DNA from: a virus
Virus record (IMG/VR): IMGVR_UViG_3300023116_000356
Location: 1 to 23,956 of that record
Length of the DNA: 23,956 bases
Reading direction: 5' to 3' (one strand)
Shown: in pieces, positions 12,064 to 19,886 of the stretch
Numbering within the stretch: the first letter of the stretch is position 1
Layout: each line of letters starts with the position of its first letter
The notes under the pieces: model-generated
What the model was told of the DNA's origin: nothing
Databases searched by the model: none
What the model saw: only the letters and a program-made list of their open reading frames with translations
Position numbers and translations under genes: made by a program

Positions 12064-13410
12064 TTATTTAGGTGCCACCTTGATACTGTCTCTCAAAAGG
12101 TGCAGAGTTGTTTGCATTTGAGAAACTTTGTAGACGTGAGTGACACCACCAATAAGATAGGTGCCAGAATATACTTTGTCAAGTTCTACCTTTTTACCCT
12201 TTGCCTGCATTCGTGGAATTTCTACTTTTACACCTTCACCAGCGTTCAGTCCTAAGTTGCCAGGAACTTCAATTTGCAGTTGAATAGTTTCAAGTGCCTT
12301 CTTTCTAAGATAGTTGTATGCAGCAGTGTCCAAATAGTAGTTAAGGTTCTTAGACTTCTTACTACTATTTCCATCTTTAGATGGTGTATCCCACAAGTGA
12401 GTAGGCAACACCCTATAATGAACACGCTTAGGATTGTTAATCATCTTTGAGACGATTGGATCCTTTGTGTCTATTGGAATCTTTCCACCTTTCTCTAGAA
12501 GAGAAAACTCTTTGTAGTACGTTTCAATGTTATAATATGCAGTTTCTGCAGTCACTTTTTTATTCTTAGTTGGCAATACAGATTCTCCCAGAGTGCTAGG
12601 ATCCAAACCAATAATATATCCAGACCATGTACCTTGACGGAGATTTTCTAAACTGTTGTACGACTTTGGAAATGTAAGTCTGTTAATAAGATACTGGTTT
12701 CTGCCAGGATCATCCGATACTGCCTTTTGACCATACACATAGGTAGGTTTATCTTGTGCAACTGCATTCTCAACCAACTTGTCTAGGGTTTTGAAATGAT
12801 AACCCTTGGCGTTTTCATAGAAAACATATGCACCCTGTGCTTTATCTGCCTTAGAACCAGTTCTAGTTGCCTTAGATGCTACGAAGTTGATGGCATCAAA
12901 CGGTCTCCAGTTAGGAGCAGTAAATCTCATTTTGTTTGCTGCCTCAACATCAAACTTTTTACCATTCTTTCCGCCAAGAGTGGTAACCATCTCTAAAATC
13001 TTTTTGACGTGTGCCCCAGCATCCAGAGATTGATACGCACCAAATACATTGACAATTTCATTGGTGATAAAAGCGGGAGACACCATCTTCAGAACATACG
13101 CTTCCTTCTTCTCTTGCTTAGATCGGGATCCAATCTCATAACACTGGAGGATATATGTAACCTGGGTGCCAAATGCCTCCAGTTCAATTCTCCAATACTC
13201 ATTACCAATTAGAGTGTTGATGAAGTCTGTGGCATCAAAAATTGCAACCTCAGCAAAGATTGCAGGCATACTGATGCTCTCAATAATCTTAACTTCGGAG
13301 ATGAGTTCTGTGAGGTCGCGAGCACCATCTTTTGCAGTTCTTATCTGACCATTGCCATCTAACAGGAACGCTTTAAGTGCAGTTTGTCCCGATTTTTGTA
13401 GTGGTGCCAT
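12064..13410 (-). CDS. gp27-like baseplate hub protein (448 aa)
   Basis: I place the start at ATG 13410 (MAPLQKSGQTALKAFLLDGN), which shares its A with the upstream TAA (TAATG coupling); GGAGG lies 13 nt upstream. An in-frame TTG at 13419 is possible but less likely. The N-terminal part reads LTELISEVKIIESISMPAIF, then IGNEYWRIELEAFG and EAYVLKMVSPAFITNEIVNV, the pattern of tube-like hub domains in gp27. The C-terminal end has a short beta-barrel-like segment (GLNAGEGVKVEIPRM, then YSGTYLIGGVTHVYK). Its position after the two large tail proteins and before the spike gene fits the hub that carries the spike. Sequence identity to T4 gp27 looks low. Confidence 0.65.
   Translation of the reverse strand: MAPLQKSGQTALKAFLLDGNGQIRTAKDGARDLTELISEVKIIESISMPAIFAEVAIFDATDFINTLIGNEYWRIELEAFGTQVTYILQCYEIGSRSKQEKKEAYVLKMVSPAFITNEIVNVFGAYQSLDAGAHVKKILEMVTTLGGKNGKKFDVEAANKMRFTAPNWRPFDAINFVASKATRTGSKADKAQGAYVFYENAKGYHFKTLDKLVENAVAQDKPTYVYGQKAVSDDPGRNQYLINRLTFPKSYNSLENLRQGTWSGYIIGLDPSTLGESVLPTKNKKVTAETAYYNIETYYKEFSLLEKGGKIPIDTKDPIVSKMINNPKRVHYRVLPTHLWDTPSKDGNSSKKSKNLNYYLDTAAYNYLRKKALETIQLQIEVPGNLGLNAGEGVKVEIPRMQAKGKKVELDKVYSGTYLIGGVTHVYKVSQMQTTLHLLRDSIKVAPK
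12065..12072 (-). promoter_or_regulatory. Late promoter-like box CCTAAATA before the CP12-like gene
   Basis: CCTAAATA on the minus strand covers the last codons and stop of the hub gene (CCT AAA TAA, stop 12064-12066), 28 nt before the CP12 ATG. Same arrangement as at 11023-11030 and 19908-19915. Confidence 0.5.
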
Positions 13411-15947
13411 TAACCCCAACCTCCGCCGAATAATCCAATCTTAGGCATAAATGCTAACCAATCTGGCATTTTATTATCTGGTATATTTACCGTTGTTGGA
13501 GGTGGTGCAGTTCCTTTATCATCTGAAGATGTTTTTGCTGCGTCTGCCTTAGTTGCAGCAGTGGCAACAGCAGTTGCTGCCTCAACTTTTTTGGTTTGCT
13601 CTTCCTGTACAGTCTTTTCTGCACTCTCTTTCTCTTCAGCAACTTCTTCAGTAAACCCTAGAACCTTTCTAGTTTCATCAATACCTTTAGCGAGCATATC
13701 AAACGCTTGCCTTTTGAGTGCCTCTGGATCTACAGCAGGTGCAGCAGCAATGGTATCACCACCGCCACTTCCACTACTAGGAACACCCGCGATGTTTAGA
13801 TTGGGATTGTCGCTAACCAATGGGGATCCACCTCTGGCACCATCAATCGCTGCCTCAACCTCAGCAACGGTGTGCGCTGCTCTGTTTCCACCATAGATAG
13901 TGTTTCCAGTGTCAGGGTGTGGAATTGATGCCCATTCTTGAGCGAGAGCAAGGATTGCACCTCGTCTGTCGTTATGCTCTTTTTTGATATATTTCCAGGC
14001 ATAAGGTTTTTTGAATTGGATCAATCCAGCACCAATTTTATCCTGTGTCGCTTTGTCAAATTTGGCATTCTTATCAATGTTCATTGTTCTTACAATGCTC
14101 GCCATTGTTGCAGGAATGACCTGATAACGACCAGCAGCAAAAATTCCGTAATCACCTACCTGAGGATTTGCCTTGTTCATAAGGTACGCCTGACGTTCCA
14201 TAATTTCACCAACAGTCATGTCAGTCAAGTTCTTGCCAATCTTACCCTTAGCGTCATGAGTAGAACCAACAATCCTGTCGTTAATCGTACCCTGGTTCAT
14301 AGAGTTATATCCACCCTCACCAGATGCAATGAAGTCTAGCAGACCGCCTGCAGCATATCCAGGAATACGGGCAGATATTTCATTCATGGTAGACATGAAT
14401 TTTCCACCACCATCAAACCCCTTAAACATTCCACCGAGGTCAAACCCACCCCGAATTGCTTCACCCATCCTACGGTTAGTTAGACCAGGATTATTTTTAG
14501 TTGCAGGAGTATCAAATGGTACTACAAAACCACCGCCTGCCTTTTTCTGTGCAACATATTCTGTCCCGTGACCAATAAAGTCTATACCTTGACCAGTAAG
14601 TGATACTGGGTATCCAGACTGAGGACCCTGAATCCAACCACCCGCCGCTTTTTCGGGTACTTTTGCTTCTGATGCAGGTTTCAGTTTACTCTTAACTGCA
14701 CTTGCAACAACTGTTGCACTCTTACCTCTGTGTGGATATCTAGGAGTATCTGCCCATTCAGCATTACTGTCACCAATAACAGGTGCTCCATTATACTTAC
14801 CCTGAATCCTCTCCATCTCCTTGGGAAGGATATGCGTATAGGGCCAAGTAGCATCATTAGGGTCGTAATTAGCCTGTTCAATAGTAGCACCTGCTTTCTG
14901 TGCCGCTTCTACAGTTGCAGCATGAACAGGTTTATATCTGTCCATATTTGCAGGTGGAATGAATACAGGGTTGTATCCAAGTTCTTTAGCATTTTTGATC
15001 GCATCTGCAACACCTCTGGCACCCTTGTCAGGATCACCAAAATCATTGGTGCCAGCAGCAATAATAAGAGTTTTATCCGTGTTACCAGTTCCGCCTGGTG
15101 TAGTATTTGCACCATTTCCTTCTGTTGTGGTTGGAGTAGTTCCATCAGGCAATGATTTTGCAACCTGATAAGTTACCACACCTGCTGCTGTAACTGTTGC
15201 CAACGTTGTAAAGGCACCGAGGATCCTACCCCACTTGCCTCTCTTCATCCTCTTCTTACTGTTAGTAAGATTAGTCCACAAAGTCTTCAGGACCCAGATG
15301 AAATCATTGACCATTTTCATCGGGTTTGTCAACCACCTAAGTCCTAGCAGTAGTGTGCCAAATCCTAATAAGAATTGTCCAAATCCAATTATCTTGTCCC
15401 ACCATGTTGCCTCTGGATCCCACATCTTAGCGATGCCATCCAACATGTTGAATATAGAACTAGTAAAGAAGTTGTATAAGAACTCAGCAACAGACTTAAT
15501 ACCGTTCCAGATCTTTTCAATCTTCTCTAGGTTTTTGGGATCTGATAACCATTTAAGAATACCTCTTGCAACAAGAGTCCTGAATAAAAATCCTGCAAGT
15601 TGAGCGAGACCCTCAAAGAATGACCCTAAAACAGGAACAACAAAGTCTGTAATTCCACTAGACTTCTTCTTTTTAGCAGGAGTCTTATTGTCGTCCCTAC
15701 GCTTTGGTTTTATGTTCTCTAAGAGTTTTCCTTGAGCAGCAGCATTTTGCTTAAGGATATCTCTAATTTCTGTTACTACACCAGCAATACCATTCAGAGT
15801 TTGTCCTAAGGAGTTAATTCCTTGTACAGTTTTTGATCCGAGAGCATACCCCGCCTGTGCTCCCTCCGAGTCATCTTTTACCTGACCCTTCGGACTTATA
15901 AACTTGTACAAGTCAATTTTTGTCGTTTTTCCTGACTTCTGTGCCAT
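13410..15947 (-). CDS. Large tail protein with lysozyme-like domain (845 aa)
   Basis: ATG at 15947, coupled to the upstream stop by TAATG. N-terminal region (1-250): MAQKSGKTTKIDLYKFISPK, then INSLGQTLNGIAGVVTEIRD, a KPKRR linker, hydrophobic helices and SDPKNLEKIEKIWNGIK; this part is paralogous to the 1012-aa protein. About 295-410: a stretch with GTNDFGDP and later IGDSNAEW and YPHRGK, possibly SGNH-hydrolase-like. About 420-530: Gly-rich AAGGWIQGPQSGYPVSL and GHGTEYVAQ. About 535-680: lysozyme-like fold, LLDFIASGEGGYNS with candidate catalytic E544, then GIFAAGRYQVIPATM (about 600-613). The C-terminal PEALKRQAFDMLAKGIDETR also matches the paralogue. Probably a virion-borne peptidoglycan hydrolase, replacing the lysozyme missing from the gp5-like spike. 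Confidence 0.75.
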   Translation of the reverse strand: MAQKSGKTTKIDLYKFISPKGQVKDDSEGAQAGYALGSKTVQGINSLGQTLNGIAGVVTEIRDILKQNAAAQGKLLENIKPKRRDDNKTPAKKKKSSGITDFVVPVLGSFFEGLAQLAGFLFRTLVARGILKWLSDPKNLEKIEKIWNGIKSVAEFLYNFFTSSIFNMLDGIAKMWDPEATWWDKIIGFGQFLLGFGTLLLGLRWLTNPMKMVNDFIWVLKTLWTNLTNSKKRMKRGKWGRILGAFTTLATVTAAGVVTYQVAKSLPDGTTPTTTEGNGANTTPGGTGNTDKTLIIAAGTNDFGDPDKGARGVADAIKNAKELGYNPVFIPPANMDRYKPVHAATVEAAQKAGATIEQANYDPNDATWPYTHILPKEMERIQGKYNGAPVIGDSNAEWADTPRYPHRGKSATVVASAVKSKLKPASEAKVPEKAAGGWIQGPQSGYPVSLTGQGIDFIGHGTEYVAQKKAGGGFVVPFDTPATKNNPGLTNRRMGEAIRGGFDLGGMFKGFDGGGKFMSTMNEISARIPGYAAGGLLDFIASGEGGYNSMNQGTINDRIVGSTHDAKGKIGKNLTDMTVGEIMERQAYLMNKANPQVGDYGIFAAGRYQVIPATMASIVRTMNIDKNAKFDKATQDKIGAGLIQFKKPYAWKYIKKEHNDRRGAILALAQEWASIPHPDTGNTIYGGNRAAHTVAEVEAAIDGARGGSPLVSDNPNLNIAGVPSSGSGGGDTIAAAPAVDPEALKRQAFDMLAKGIDETRKVLGFTEEVAEEKESAEKTVQEEQTKKVEAATAVATAATKADAAKTSSDDKGTAPPPTTVNIPDNKMPDWLAFMPKIGLFGGGWG

Positions 15948-18900
15948 TACTTAGTAGGATACGAAGCGTTAGTGGACTTGGTAGTGACAACAACTTCACT
16001 TGAAGTATTTAGGACCTTCGTCTTAGTGATAGGTAGTATCACTGGTTCAGTTTTTGCAGTACCTTTTTCTACTGCTTCACTTGCTCTGTCTAGTGCATTT
16101 TTAGCACTTTGATCGGCAACAGAGGGTTGACTGGATGGTGCTGCTGTAGGAGTAGTGTTGTTAGTTTTTCCTCCGTCTGCTGCTTCATTTACTGGATTTG
16201 CCGTTTCCTTGTCTCCAACTTCTCTGGGTGCAAATCCCATAACTTGACGAGTTTCATCAAATGCTTTAGCAAGGGCATCAAATGCATTTTGACGCATCTG
16301 TTCGGGACTAAGTGATGGTACTACAGGTAAAGCATTACCTCCAGCATTTGTATTTGCAGTACCAGCACTTGAACTTGAACTTGATCCTCCCACATCTGCA
16401 GCAGACGCGGGTGAGGTTTGAACGTTAGGATCTTTAGCACCAGTACCAGTTAAGTTTTCAAAGTGCCATGCTTCATGCTGTCCAGGTCTGTTAGGGGCAA
16501 GACCCCAATAACCTTTGTCTAGTGTAGTAAATCCAAACTTCTCAGAGTTTGCCCATAACCACTTATATCCGTCATCGGTGTAGTTAAGGTCAGCAGCAAG
16601 TCCAAGTCCATGTTTTGACGTGCCAGGAGTAGCAGCAAGGTTACCCTTAGTCTGCTTCATATAAACTTGATCATCATACGTTCTATAGGTATCATTGATA
16701 CCCAGCATATGACCTGCTTTTTTAGCAGCATCCATCATAGATTGGAATTGAGTGGCAACACTCTTGTGCAGAATACCAGAACCCGCTTGCCCCCAACCAC
16801 CAGGATAACCATGGACTTTTACCATCTCTGCTGCTGGAACTTGTCCATTTGGATGATTGTGTGTACTACCACCAGCAGCGAACTCATTCCACTTAGAAAT
16901 GTTGTTAGTTTGTGCCAGAGCAGTTCCAGGTGTCGGCATGACAGTTGCCATACCTATGTACTTTTCCTGCTGTCTATTGTATCTAGCAATAGCAGATGCT
17001 TTGCCACCCTTTTTACGAACAGTACCACCCTTTGCCTTCTCTTCCTGTTTACCCTGAAACGCACTAACAATATTATTGATCATATCGCCCATTGGATCAG
17101 GCATTTTTGATGCAATACCTTGCATCATTGTATATGCCTGTCTCATTCCAGGAATCTTATCTATGAATGCCTCTTCTAGTTCTCTAATACCAGGAACAAG
17201 ATCTCTAATTAAAGAGAAAATGTCAATACCCAATGAGATAAATGGACCAGGGGCAAAACCAAACACACCAGACAGGTCAAAACCTGCAGACAGTGCTTCA
17301 TACATGGCACCAATAAGGTCACCCTCTTTTGCCCTAGACAAGGCAAACATGAGGTTAACCAAACCACCAATAATAGCAATGCCTTTAGCACCTACCTTGC
17401 CCAAAAGTGGCAGGGGTTTACTAAGACTACCAATACCCTTCTTCTGAAGGTATTGTTCTACCATCTGCCCCATGGGAGAGTTGGTAATTGCTTTCCAGGC
17501 AGAATCTCCTAAACCCTTAAAAAAGTTAAGTGCTGGTTTGAAAAGTTCTTTCATGGGTTGGACGATATATTTCATCGCCTGCTCTTGAGCAAACCCACCA
17601 AGTTTTTTCCCTTGCTCAGAGACGTAGTTGGCAGCACCACCAACGGCACCAGAGATTGCACCCCATCCCGCTTTGCCCTTCGCCAGCATTCCCTTGCCGA
17701 CGCTCTTAGACCATTTTACCCCGTCGTCAAACTTTTTCCTTGCAGTATCACTCATCCGTGCCCAGAGTTCTGCAAAGTTATTTGGCAGATTATATTTCTT
17801 CTTTGCGTGAGCAAAACCCTTTTTCAATGCATCGGCAGGTCTGTCAATCAAAGAACCTTTAAGATGCTTACCCCACTCGCCCAGTTTGTTCATGAACTGC
17901 TGGACGTTATTACCCAACCATCTAGCAGTTCCATATGCTGCATCCTCTGCCCAGTTAAACATCTTGCCAAAGATGCCAGCAGGTCTGTTCTTCCTTGCCT
18001 GTCTAACCAGACGTGTGGTTACTTCATCGGTGATCTCTTCACCCGCTTCAGTCGCTGCCTTTTTTAGTCGCAGATATTCTTCTGCCTGTTCTGCAGATGC
18101 AAAACCGTGACGCTTTTGAACCTGTTCTAAGATCTGCTGACGCGACCTTACATTGTCAGCAGCAGCATCTGCACCTTTTCTGGCATCGTTAGCAGCATCA
18201 ACAGCATCTTTTGCCGCTTCTGCCTGTTGCCATGCGTCAATGGCATCTGCCATCCCCATGATATCTTGGACCAAGGAGAATGGGTTGAGCAACCATCCTA
18301 ACACTTTAAGTCCAGCAATACCCATCAGGACTTGACCGAATCCCACGATCATGTCCCAGGCACCGCCTAGTTTTCCATTCTTAATCTTATCTGCACCACC
18401 AAATATATTTGCAAATCCATCAAATAGGGCACCTATACTTCCTTCCGCCAAACCCATGATAAAGGTTCCGATGTCAGATAAGGTATTCCAGAACGTTTCA
18501 ACCTTCTCTAGGTTTTTGGGATCTGCAAACCATTCTAGAACTACTTTACTAATAATTGTCCTTGCCAACCACTCCACTAGTGGTTTTAATGGTCCAAGGA
18601 TCTTATCTAACCATGCCAAAGGACCCTTTTTGCCCTTGGGCATCTTCTTTTTAAGTTCCTTTTTCCCTTTGGTCTTCTCTTGCGCTCCAACTTTTTTACC
18701 CGCACCCTCTGCCTCTCTTTCGGCAGCATCGTCTTTAGCACGATCTTTGGCACGTTCTAAATCTTCTGCAGTGTCCTTAATTAGAACACTATTTCCCTTA
18801 ACAATATCGCGAATCTCTTCTGTAACCTTACCAATACCGACTAAGGTTTTTCCTAATTGATTAAAAGACTTTGTAGTTTTGATGGCAACCAGTTTAACTC

Positions 18901-18985
18901 CTCTACTAGGCACATAAGACCCTTGGATCTCATCGGAACCAATAGAAGGGGAGATTAGTTTTTGTGCCTTAATTTTGGTTGCCAT
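15947..18985 (-). CDS. Large tail protein with M15/VanY peptidase domain (1012 aa)
   Basis: ATG at 18985 shares its A with the TAA of the -1 frame extension upstream. N-terminus ISPSIGSDEIQGSYVPSR, then FNQLGKTLVGIGKVTEEIRD, a highly charged Lys/Glu/Ala linker, then ADPKNLEKVETFWNTLSDIG and hydrophobic helices; long helical middle with Ala/Lys-rich coiled-coil-like parts, as in tape-measure proteins. At about 735-845 a peptidase domain: YRTYDDQVYMKQ, SKHGLGLAADLNY with zinc ligands H792 and D799, and EAWHFEN with E838 and H841, the M15 D-Ala-D-Ala carboxypeptidase / endolysin-type endopeptidase signature. C-terminus PEQMRQNAFDALAKAFDETR. Likely a tail protein that cuts peptide cross-links during entry; it could also act as a tape measure, since it directly follows a chaperone-like gene pair. 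Confidence 0.8.
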   Translation of the reverse strand: MATKIKAQKLISPSIGSDEIQGSYVPSRGVKLVAIKTTKSFNQLGKTLVGIGKVTEEIRDIVKGNSVLIKDTAEDLERAKDRAKDDAAEREAEGAGKKVGAQEKTKGKKELKKKMPKGKKGPLAWLDKILGPLKPLVEWLARTIISKVVLEWFADPKNLEKVETFWNTLSDIGTFIMGLAEGSIGALFDGFANIFGGADKIKNGKLGGAWDMIVGFGQVLMGIAGLKVLGWLLNPFSLVQDIMGMADAIDAWQQAEAAKDAVDAANDARKGADAAADNVRSRQQILEQVQKRHGFASAEQAEEYLRLKKAATEAGEEITDEVTTRLVRQARKNRPAGIFGKMFNWAEDAAYGTARWLGNNVQQFMNKLGEWGKHLKGSLIDRPADALKKGFAHAKKKYNLPNNFAELWARMSDTARKKFDDGVKWSKSVGKGMLAKGKAGWGAISGAVGGAANYVSEQGKKLGGFAQEQAMKYIVQPMKELFKPALNFFKGLGDSAWKAITNSPMGQMVEQYLQKKGIGSLSKPLPLLGKVGAKGIAIIGGLVNLMFALSRAKEGDLIGAMYEALSAGFDLSGVFGFAPGPFISLGIDIFSLIRDLVPGIRELEEAFIDKIPGMRQAYTMMQGIASKMPDPMGDMINNIVSAFQGKQEEKAKGGTVRKKGGKASAIARYNRQQEKYIGMATVMPTPGTALAQTNNISKWNEFAAGGSTHNHPNGQVPAAEMVKVHGYPGGWGQAGSGILHKSVATQFQSMMDAAKKAGHMLGINDTYRTYDDQVYMKQTKGNLAATPGTSKHGLGLAADLNYTDDGYKWLWANSEKFGFTTLDKGYWGLAPNRPGQHEAWHFENLTGTGAKDPNVQTSPASAADVGGSSSSSSAGTANTNAGGNALPVVPSLSPEQMRQNAFDALAKAFDETRQVMGFAPREVGDKETANPVNEAADGGKTNNTTPTAAPSSQPSVADQSAKNALDRASEAVEKGTAKTEPVILPITKTKVLNTSSEVVVTTKSTNASYPTK

Positions 18986-19179
18986 TACCTTCCTTGTTGT
19001 TGCCGCTCTTTATACCGTTTTGCTTCCTCTTCAAGATGTTTGATGAGAAGATTAGTATAAATCTCCTTCTCCCATGGCATTACATTGTCCAAATACTCAG
19101 GGTTCCACTTATGATGGTGAATTAGTGCGAAGTTAGTTTCATAATAATTCACCAAATTAGTGTGGAGAAGGGCTATCCG
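18985..19179 (-). CDS. -1 frame extension of the gp26-like gene (64 codons)
   Basis: After a -1 slip on T TTT TTC the frame reads CGG at 19179-19177 and stays open for 64 codons to TAA at 18985-18987, which overlaps the next ATG. The peptide starts RIALLHTNLVNYYETNFALI and continues through a HHHKWNPEYLDNV segment, MPWEKEIYTNLLIKHLEEE and a basic KRYKERQQQGR end. The sequence is clearly protein-like (helical, amphipathic). A stand-alone start is possible at GTG 19152, but no ribosome binding site precedes it, and the frame is open all the way back to the slippery site. The position (between a gp26-like gene and a tape-measure-like gene) matches tail-assembly chaperone pairs. It may be what is called gp51 in related phages. 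Confidence 0.65.
   Translation of the reverse strand, partial: RIALLHTNLVNYYETNFALIHHHKWNPEYLDNVMPWEKEIYTNLLIKHLEEEAKRYKERQQQGR
19116..19153 (-). repeat. 9-bp inverted repeat downstream of the slippery site
   Basis: GGTGAATTA (19153-19145) and TAATTCACC (19124-19116) pair perfectly over 9 bp with a 20-nt loop on the minus-strand RNA. It starts 25 nt after the heptamer, further than the usual 5-9 nt for a frameshift stimulator, so it may act through a more complex fold or not at all. Confidence 0.5.
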
Positions 19180-19886
19180 AAAAAAGATGATAGTCCTTCA
19201 AGTACATAAGTTTGTTCAACCTTAGTATTTGGATTCATGAACTTAATCTCATGAGACAGTTTGGGCATAGTTTCAAAGAACGTTTGAATTTGCTCAAACT
19301 GTTTGGAGTCAAACTGCTCTAAAAACTCTTGAAGTTCTTCTCTAGAAGACTCTCTGGCATCATATACTTCTTCACCATCAACAATCTGATCAATGCAACT
19401 AATAGTAACTTCAAATACGTTGTCAAGTTGATCGCCAGTCTCAAAATTAGCACTAACAAAGGTATCCATTTTGGGATACTTCATCACCATGGAGATGGTT
19501 TTGTCAAGTTTGATGGTGTTGGTGTGCTTAGGATTTCTCTTGACTTCAACCTGTGAAAGGTCAACAGTCACTTGAACTTGAGTTTCCATGTCATCAGGAC
19601 AGGTCATCATAAGATCAACAGTTTCACCAACAGACTTAGAACGAATCTGCAGGAACAGGTATTCAATGTCAAATGTCGGCAGATTGTCAACGTCTGGCAT
19701 AGACAAATTAGTGGTGTTCACGATCAGATCTTTAATGGTATCAACCATGTTTTGCTGATCTTGCGTCTCCATAGCAAGGAGGAGAAGTTTCTCTTCCTTT
19801 ACAAGGAATGGTCTATACTTAACTTTTCTACCGTCAGACGGGAGTTTCAATTCATATCTGGGGACTTGTAATTTAGGTAATGCCAT
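19173..19886 (-). CDS. gp26-like baseplate hub assembly protein (237 aa)
   Basis: ATG at 19886 (MALPKLQVPRYELKLPSDGR), behind a CTAAATA box. The N-terminal KYRPFLVKEEKLLLLAMETQ motif and the following helical MVDTIKDLIVNTTNL are typical of T4 gp26-type baseplate proteins (Pfam T4 base plate family, recalled from memory). A beta-rich middle (VDLMMTCPDDMETQVQVTVD) and a C-terminal helix (SREELQEFLEQFDSKQFEQI) follow. The frame ends LSSFFG at TAG 19173, and the two Phe codons form a slippery heptamer that could extend the protein to about 300 residues. In other tailed phages proteins at this position are chaperones for the tape-measure protein, and the next gene is a 1012-aa tail protein. Confidence 0.7.
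   Translation of the reverse strand: MALPKLQVPRYELKLPSDGRKVKYRPFLVKEEKLLLLAMETQDQQNMVDTIKDLIVNTTNLSMPDVDNLPTFDIEYLFLQIRSKSVGETVDLMMTCPDDMETQVQVTVDLSQVEVKRNPKHTNTIKLDKTISMVMKYPKMDTFVSANFETGDQLDNVFEVTISCIDQIVDGEEVYDARESSREELQEFLEQFDSKQFEQIQTFFETMPKLSHEIKFMNPNTKVEQTYVLEGLSSFFG
19179..19185 (-). promoter_or_regulatory. Candidate -1 ribosomal frameshift site (T TTT TTC)
   Basis: The heptamer T TTT TTC is in the X XXY YYZ register of the gp26-like frame (TCT TTT TTC GGA TAG), 3 nt before the GGA-TAG end. GAAGGA (19199-19194) lies 8 nt upstream, resembling the internal Shine-Dalgarno that stimulates dnaX frameshifting. The -1 frame is open to 18985. Frameshifting is inferred, not shown. Confidence 0.6.

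Follow-up and report, generated by a model that had tools for sequence, protein, structure and literature searches.

The window, by which we mean the whole stretch of 23,956 nucleotides of viral DNA that was analysed, comes from a marine, T4-like cyanophage and encodes on its minus strand a gp26-like protein of 237 amino acids (19173-19886, 0 frame; PF12322, phrog_150) which is predicted to be a short tail assembly chaperone. The 3' end of this gene, read directly from the sequence, is GAA GGA CTA TCA TCT TTT TTC GGA TAG. It contains the slippery heptamer T_TTT_TTC at 19179-19185 (-), in the X_XXY_YYZ register of the 0 frame and recognised from the sequence as well as from relatives, followed one codon later by the 0-frame stop TAG (19173-19175, -). 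A Shine-Dalgarno-like GAAGGA at 19194-19199 (-), supported by codon bias in relatives, precedes the heptamer with a spacer of 8 nt. Read in the -1 frame from the heptamer, the sequence runs through 64 sense codons (19179 to 18988, minus strand) before it closes with a TAA at 18985-18987, so that the extension as a whole occupies 18985-19179 (-); phrog_634 and its match to the C-terminus of T4-type gp51 identify it as a gp51-like domain. The last base of this TAA is the first base of the ATG of a gene for 1012 amino acids. The predicted long form has 300 residues, made up of gp26 residues 1-236 and the 64-residue extension. The only starts that the -1 frame offers are TTG/GTG near extension codons 9-10, neither with a Shine-Dalgarno sequence, and then an ATG at codon 34. 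A preliminary description of this DNA had proposed a programmed -1 frameshift from these features, and its account of the heptamer in canonical register, the GAAGGA 8 nt upstream, the 64-codon protein-like frame, the want of a good start and the overlap with the next gene was borne out in each respect.

The gp26-like protein matches PF12322 (E=5e-72) and phrog_150 (E=2e-82) and has 693 phage records at E<=1e-5, while the extension matches phrog_634 (E=9e-27) and 488 phage records. The same pairing of PF12322 with a phrog_634 extension is found in whole genomes of relatives, and by these sequence matches the gene and its extension can be assigned to the T4 gp26/gp51 family. For a predicted model of gp26 (pLDDT 88.8), the top two Foldseek rows are both the HK97 tail assembly chaperone 2ob9, at a weak E of about 1, and VIA-align placed 3fgx, 2ob9 and 3klu as the top three with Z of 7.5-7.7 (weak, Z <8) over about 86 N-terminal residues. 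These model-based matches agree with a chaperone role for gp26, short of proof. The gp26 profile found no relative among the sequences of solved structures, and a search of the PDB with a model of the T4-type gp51 found nothing.

The 1012-aa protein (15947-18985, -) carries a VanY peptidase domain (PF02557, E=1e-8). Its best PHROG match is phrog_790, labelled 'endolysin' (E=1e-122), with a weaker match to the tape-measure family phrog_16823, and we call it tape-measure-like mainly from its position and size. A long gene with a VanY peptidase domain would fit a tape-measure protein that carries a cell-wall enzyme. It is succeeded by a gene for 845 amino acids (13410-15947, -), so that both come after gp26 and the extension; the two proteins share matches to phrog_790, phrog_1200, phrog_2588 and phrog_17500 in their N-terminal parts, with VanY in the first, and the pair resembles two tape-measure-like proteins that carry cell-wall enzymes.

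Scanning IMG/VR with the gp26 of the window yielded 80 loci. The position of T_TTT_TTC is the same in all 80, and an open -1 frame encoding a related protein is likewise present in 80/80. The set was widened with loci from KVP40-like, Aeh1, phiM12 and Melnitz queries and with annotated phages to 200 distinct junctions, which reduce to 138 genes after clustering at 90% identity. Every one of the 200 has an in-frame T_TTT_TTN no more than 31 nt from the gp26 stop (exactly 31 nt ahead of it in five junctions), and in 191 of them the stop follows the heptamer directly or one codon on. The heptamer was absent from the scan patterns, thus its conservation is not built into this result. Its last base is C in most junctions and T, A or G in the others. 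Past the heptamer, 56-73 codons (mean 63) stay open in the -1 frame in every complete case, and for nearly all phage records among the matches listed the homology to the extension begins at its residue 1, which is where the slip would occur. The register is kept down to about 25% protein identity, among others in Aeh1, KVP40-like phages, phiM12, Mendera and relatives among the pelagiphages and methylophages.

There are variations on this arrangement. The perfect heptamer is missing in a few Vibrio phages, K476, D528 and Kuja (L268, L275 and L276), where it has decayed to CTT TTT or CTT TTC and the extension is still in the -1 frame; there is no ATG nearby in Kuja, so a weaker slip by a single tRNA may operate there. 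In Melnitz-like phages (L088, L125, L179-L191) the slip run has at least seven T and the stop comes directly after it (TTT TTT TAA/TAG), so the stop codon adjoins the slip codons.

The codons of the slip site are more uniform than codon usage would give. Under a codon-usage null for a preceding codon ending in T and a first Phe codon TTT, log10 P is about -51 when the 136 non-redundant genes are treated as independent. Of 56 independent sequence pairs, 0 and 1 differ synonymously at the first and second slip codon, against 13.7 and 14.7 expected, and the five-codon windows over the slip site are the most suppressed of the gene, ahead of those in the gene start region. An alignment of the junctions, as the preliminary description had proposed, thus shows the heptamer and its register retained and the -1 frame open across the 200, and the sequence pairs show synonymous change suppressed at the slip codons. 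Upstream, codon choice at the Glu-Gly pair of the relatives is also biased: GAG makes up 70% against a background of 31%, GGA/GGG 78% against 38%, and GGT only 17% against 52%. This preference keeps a purine-rich, Shine-Dalgarno-like stretch, and the sequences indicate selection at synonymous positions for the GAGGG/GAAGGR element. By its substitution pattern the extension evolves as a protein under purifying selection, with a median dN/dS across relatives of 0.077 vs 0.101 for gp26. Upstream of the heptamer the -1 frame is closed over a 60-codon stretch in 134/134 sequences, with a mean of 8.7 stops per 60 codons.

T4 provides a natural control. Its gp26 has neither the heptamer nor the extension, and in its gp51 the extension comes after a gp26-like domain. 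In a profile comparison with the T4-type gp51, residues 22-236 of gp26 match residues 14-200 (E 4e-13), and residues 6-46 of the extension match 206-245 (E 9e-7), co-linear with the gp26 match. PF12322 is present in two copies in T4, a Krischvirus, Cronus, RB43 and two more genomes of the T4 type, but in a single copy in every frameshift-type genome tested. Two genes, short and fused, in place of one gene with a slip offer a clear example of a recoding signal traded for gene duplication, and the presence of duplication and fusion in the place of the frameshifting of other lineages argues that the short and the long product are both needed. The fused T4 gp51 also predicts what the long form of the cyanophages should look like. 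The two PF12322 copies of RB43 (L265, 3001-4294) are neighbours on the same strand and come right after a tail-tube-like position, while those of T4 are divergent. In another T4-like contig (L263, 2501-3246) the length of the gp51 match is not divisible by three and the match has many in-frame stops, which we take as an indel or a sequencing error.

Structure in the RNA downstream of the slip site is more variable. The preliminary description had pointed to a perfect 9-bp inverted repeat, and such a repeat does exist at 19115-19154 (-), where the MFE fold pairs the arms TGGTGAATTA (19145-19154) and TAATTCACCA (19115-19124) over 9-10 bp, but it is not conserved: the nearest relative (L001) lacks it, and the window's clade has no consensus helix there. 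We have rejected it as a conserved stimulator on this ground, and a stimulatory role for it is unproven. The 60 nt past the heptamer are more stable than synonymous shuffles (mean z -1.6 vs -0.6 for a control stretch). A sister clade of P-SSM2-like phages has a 10-bp hairpin that begins some 5 nt past the heptamer and shows compensatory changes, two adjacent pairs having 4 and 3 such events on the tree. No conserved structure downstream of the heptamer was found in the window's own clade. A possible long-range stem (19065-19171, -) would pair CCTTCTCC (19164-19171) with GGAGAAGG (19065-19072), with z=-2.6 against synonymous shuffles. The corresponding pairing of extension nt 8-18 with 103-114 (register i+j=121) has strong pair counts in 60 relatives, and the window version has 8 bp and is one base off register. 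Counted on a tree, compensatory co-changes came to one per pair, with no excess over other pairs, and since this control lends no support to independent co-evolution the stem is only a lead, suggestive as a stimulator. As a tentative idea, which we hold as rather less than even, stimulatory stems may be lineage-specific and interchangeable, with the 5' arm always some 5-7 nt after one conserved slip site: a local hairpin in P-SSM2-like phages, a reach of about 85 nt in other phages, including the window.

The comparative evidence strongly supports a programmed -1 frameshift that joins gp26 to the 64-codon extension, and -1 ribosomal frameshifting very probably yields a short (237 aa) and a long (300 aa) tail assembly chaperone, as lambda does with G and GT. 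Most ribosomes would end at the TAG and release the short form. A minority, with both P and A site occupied by tRNA-Phe over T_TTT_TTC, would shift one base backwards to TTT TTT and read on in the -1 frame to make the long form, and the purine-rich GAAGGA upstream probably pairs with the anti-Shine-Dalgarno of the 16S rRNA to make the ribosome pause. On the model of lambda G/GT, the short forms may coat the tape-measure protein and the extension of the rarer long form may recruit tail tube subunits. The sequences themselves show the heptamer in its register, a -1 frame that is open and protein-like, selection both on the slip codons and on the SD-like element, and one gene copy where T4 has a duplicate and a fusion; we infer the slippage itself and its efficiency, and likewise any role of downstream RNA structure and the chaperone function.

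Most database records annotate gp51 as a small gene of its own, which would be translated by internal or coupled initiation and would leave the T6 run as nothing but two Phe codons. KVP40-like, Mendera and RL38J1 phages do have an ATG that overlaps the gp26 stop, alongside the heptamer, so a separate small protein could be made there too, and for the KVP40-like phages we would entertain, with the same reserve as the interchangeable stems, a second route to free gp51. As a general explanation, however, we consider separate initiation very improbable. The fixation of the Phe-Phe codons and of the third base before them goes far past codon usage, the fused form is present in T4, and 42 of the 138 genes have no ATG, GTG or TTG at all before extension residue 13. 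Relatives with a start and Shine-Dalgarno sequence of their own and no heptamer, which would speak against frameshifting, were looked for; a start with an SD-like sequence before that residue occurs in only 4/138. The gp51 starts in the records are set at arbitrary ATGs which remove conserved residues (S-RSM4, Melnitz), and in the record of an ACG-2014d isolate the extension region is left unannotated. In a group that ranks among the most common marine viruses, many records give gp51 separately from an arbitrarily chosen start or omit it, and ribosomal frameshifting would correct their annotation.

Both forms could also arise from mixed mRNAs if RNA polymerase slipped on the run of six or seven T. 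The element is indeed a T run, and some relatives have seven T, but C breaks it at position 7 in 107 of 136 sequences, and a run of this size is short for transcriptional slippage in general; the selection on the SD-like element and the clade with the hairpin fit ribosomal stimulation. Of the readings considered we give this one the least chance. A different objection accepts the frameshift and questions what its products do. T4 gp26 and gp51 were genetically defined as hub and hub-assembly proteins, and the labels in annotation follow suit, so the two forms might serve the baseplate hub and not the tape measure. We regard this as unlikely, though less so than the two preceding alternatives, given that the gene stands directly before a long tape-measure-like gene, makes a short/long pair by a -1 slip and has a chaperone-like N-terminal fold in its predicted model. 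Papers citing Vladimirov et al. (2022), in the passages concerned, also point to a published reassignment.

The E. coli dnaX signal also has an SD-like element a few nt upstream of its heptamer, but the latter is A_AAA_AAG, the frameshift product is the shorter one and there is a strong downstream hairpin. The -1 frameshift of lambda G/GT and its general conservation were reportedly described by Xu, Hendrix and Duda in 2004. As is proposed for the window, lambda uses a -1 slip immediately ahead of its tape-measure gene to make a short and a long tail protein; its heptamer is G_GGA_AAG instead of T_TTT_TTC, and the proteins reportedly have no evident sequence similarity. Another close system is that of the T4-like gp26 and gp51, which belong to the same families (PF12322, phrog_634); T4 itself differs in having two genes, a short gp26 and a fused gp51. 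The view in the preliminary description that such a frameshift was undescribed for the gp26/gp51 pair does not hold: passages of two later papers (PMC12846349, PMC10885494) credit Vladimirov, Gautam and Davidson (2022; Virology 566:9, doi 10.1016/j.virol.2021.11.003) with recognising which proteins are the tail assembly chaperones in T4-like phages and with the poly-T slip signals in the short-chaperone genes, and PRFect (PMC10885494) cites the same work for T4-like phages with a short gene and a fused long gene instead. With all three credited there, the phenomenon is of a known kind and such a slip in T4-like tail chaperones appears, from these passages, to have been reported already. Vandenendeviridae and Andersonviridae (phage Adele, PMC12846349), which are other phage families than that of the window, likewise have a conserved -1 poly-T slip (GTTTTT) and an extension of more than 200 bp, which has been mis-annotated as a separate gene. 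The 200 junctions, the selection on the SD-like element and the clade-specific hairpin extend this known phenomenon.
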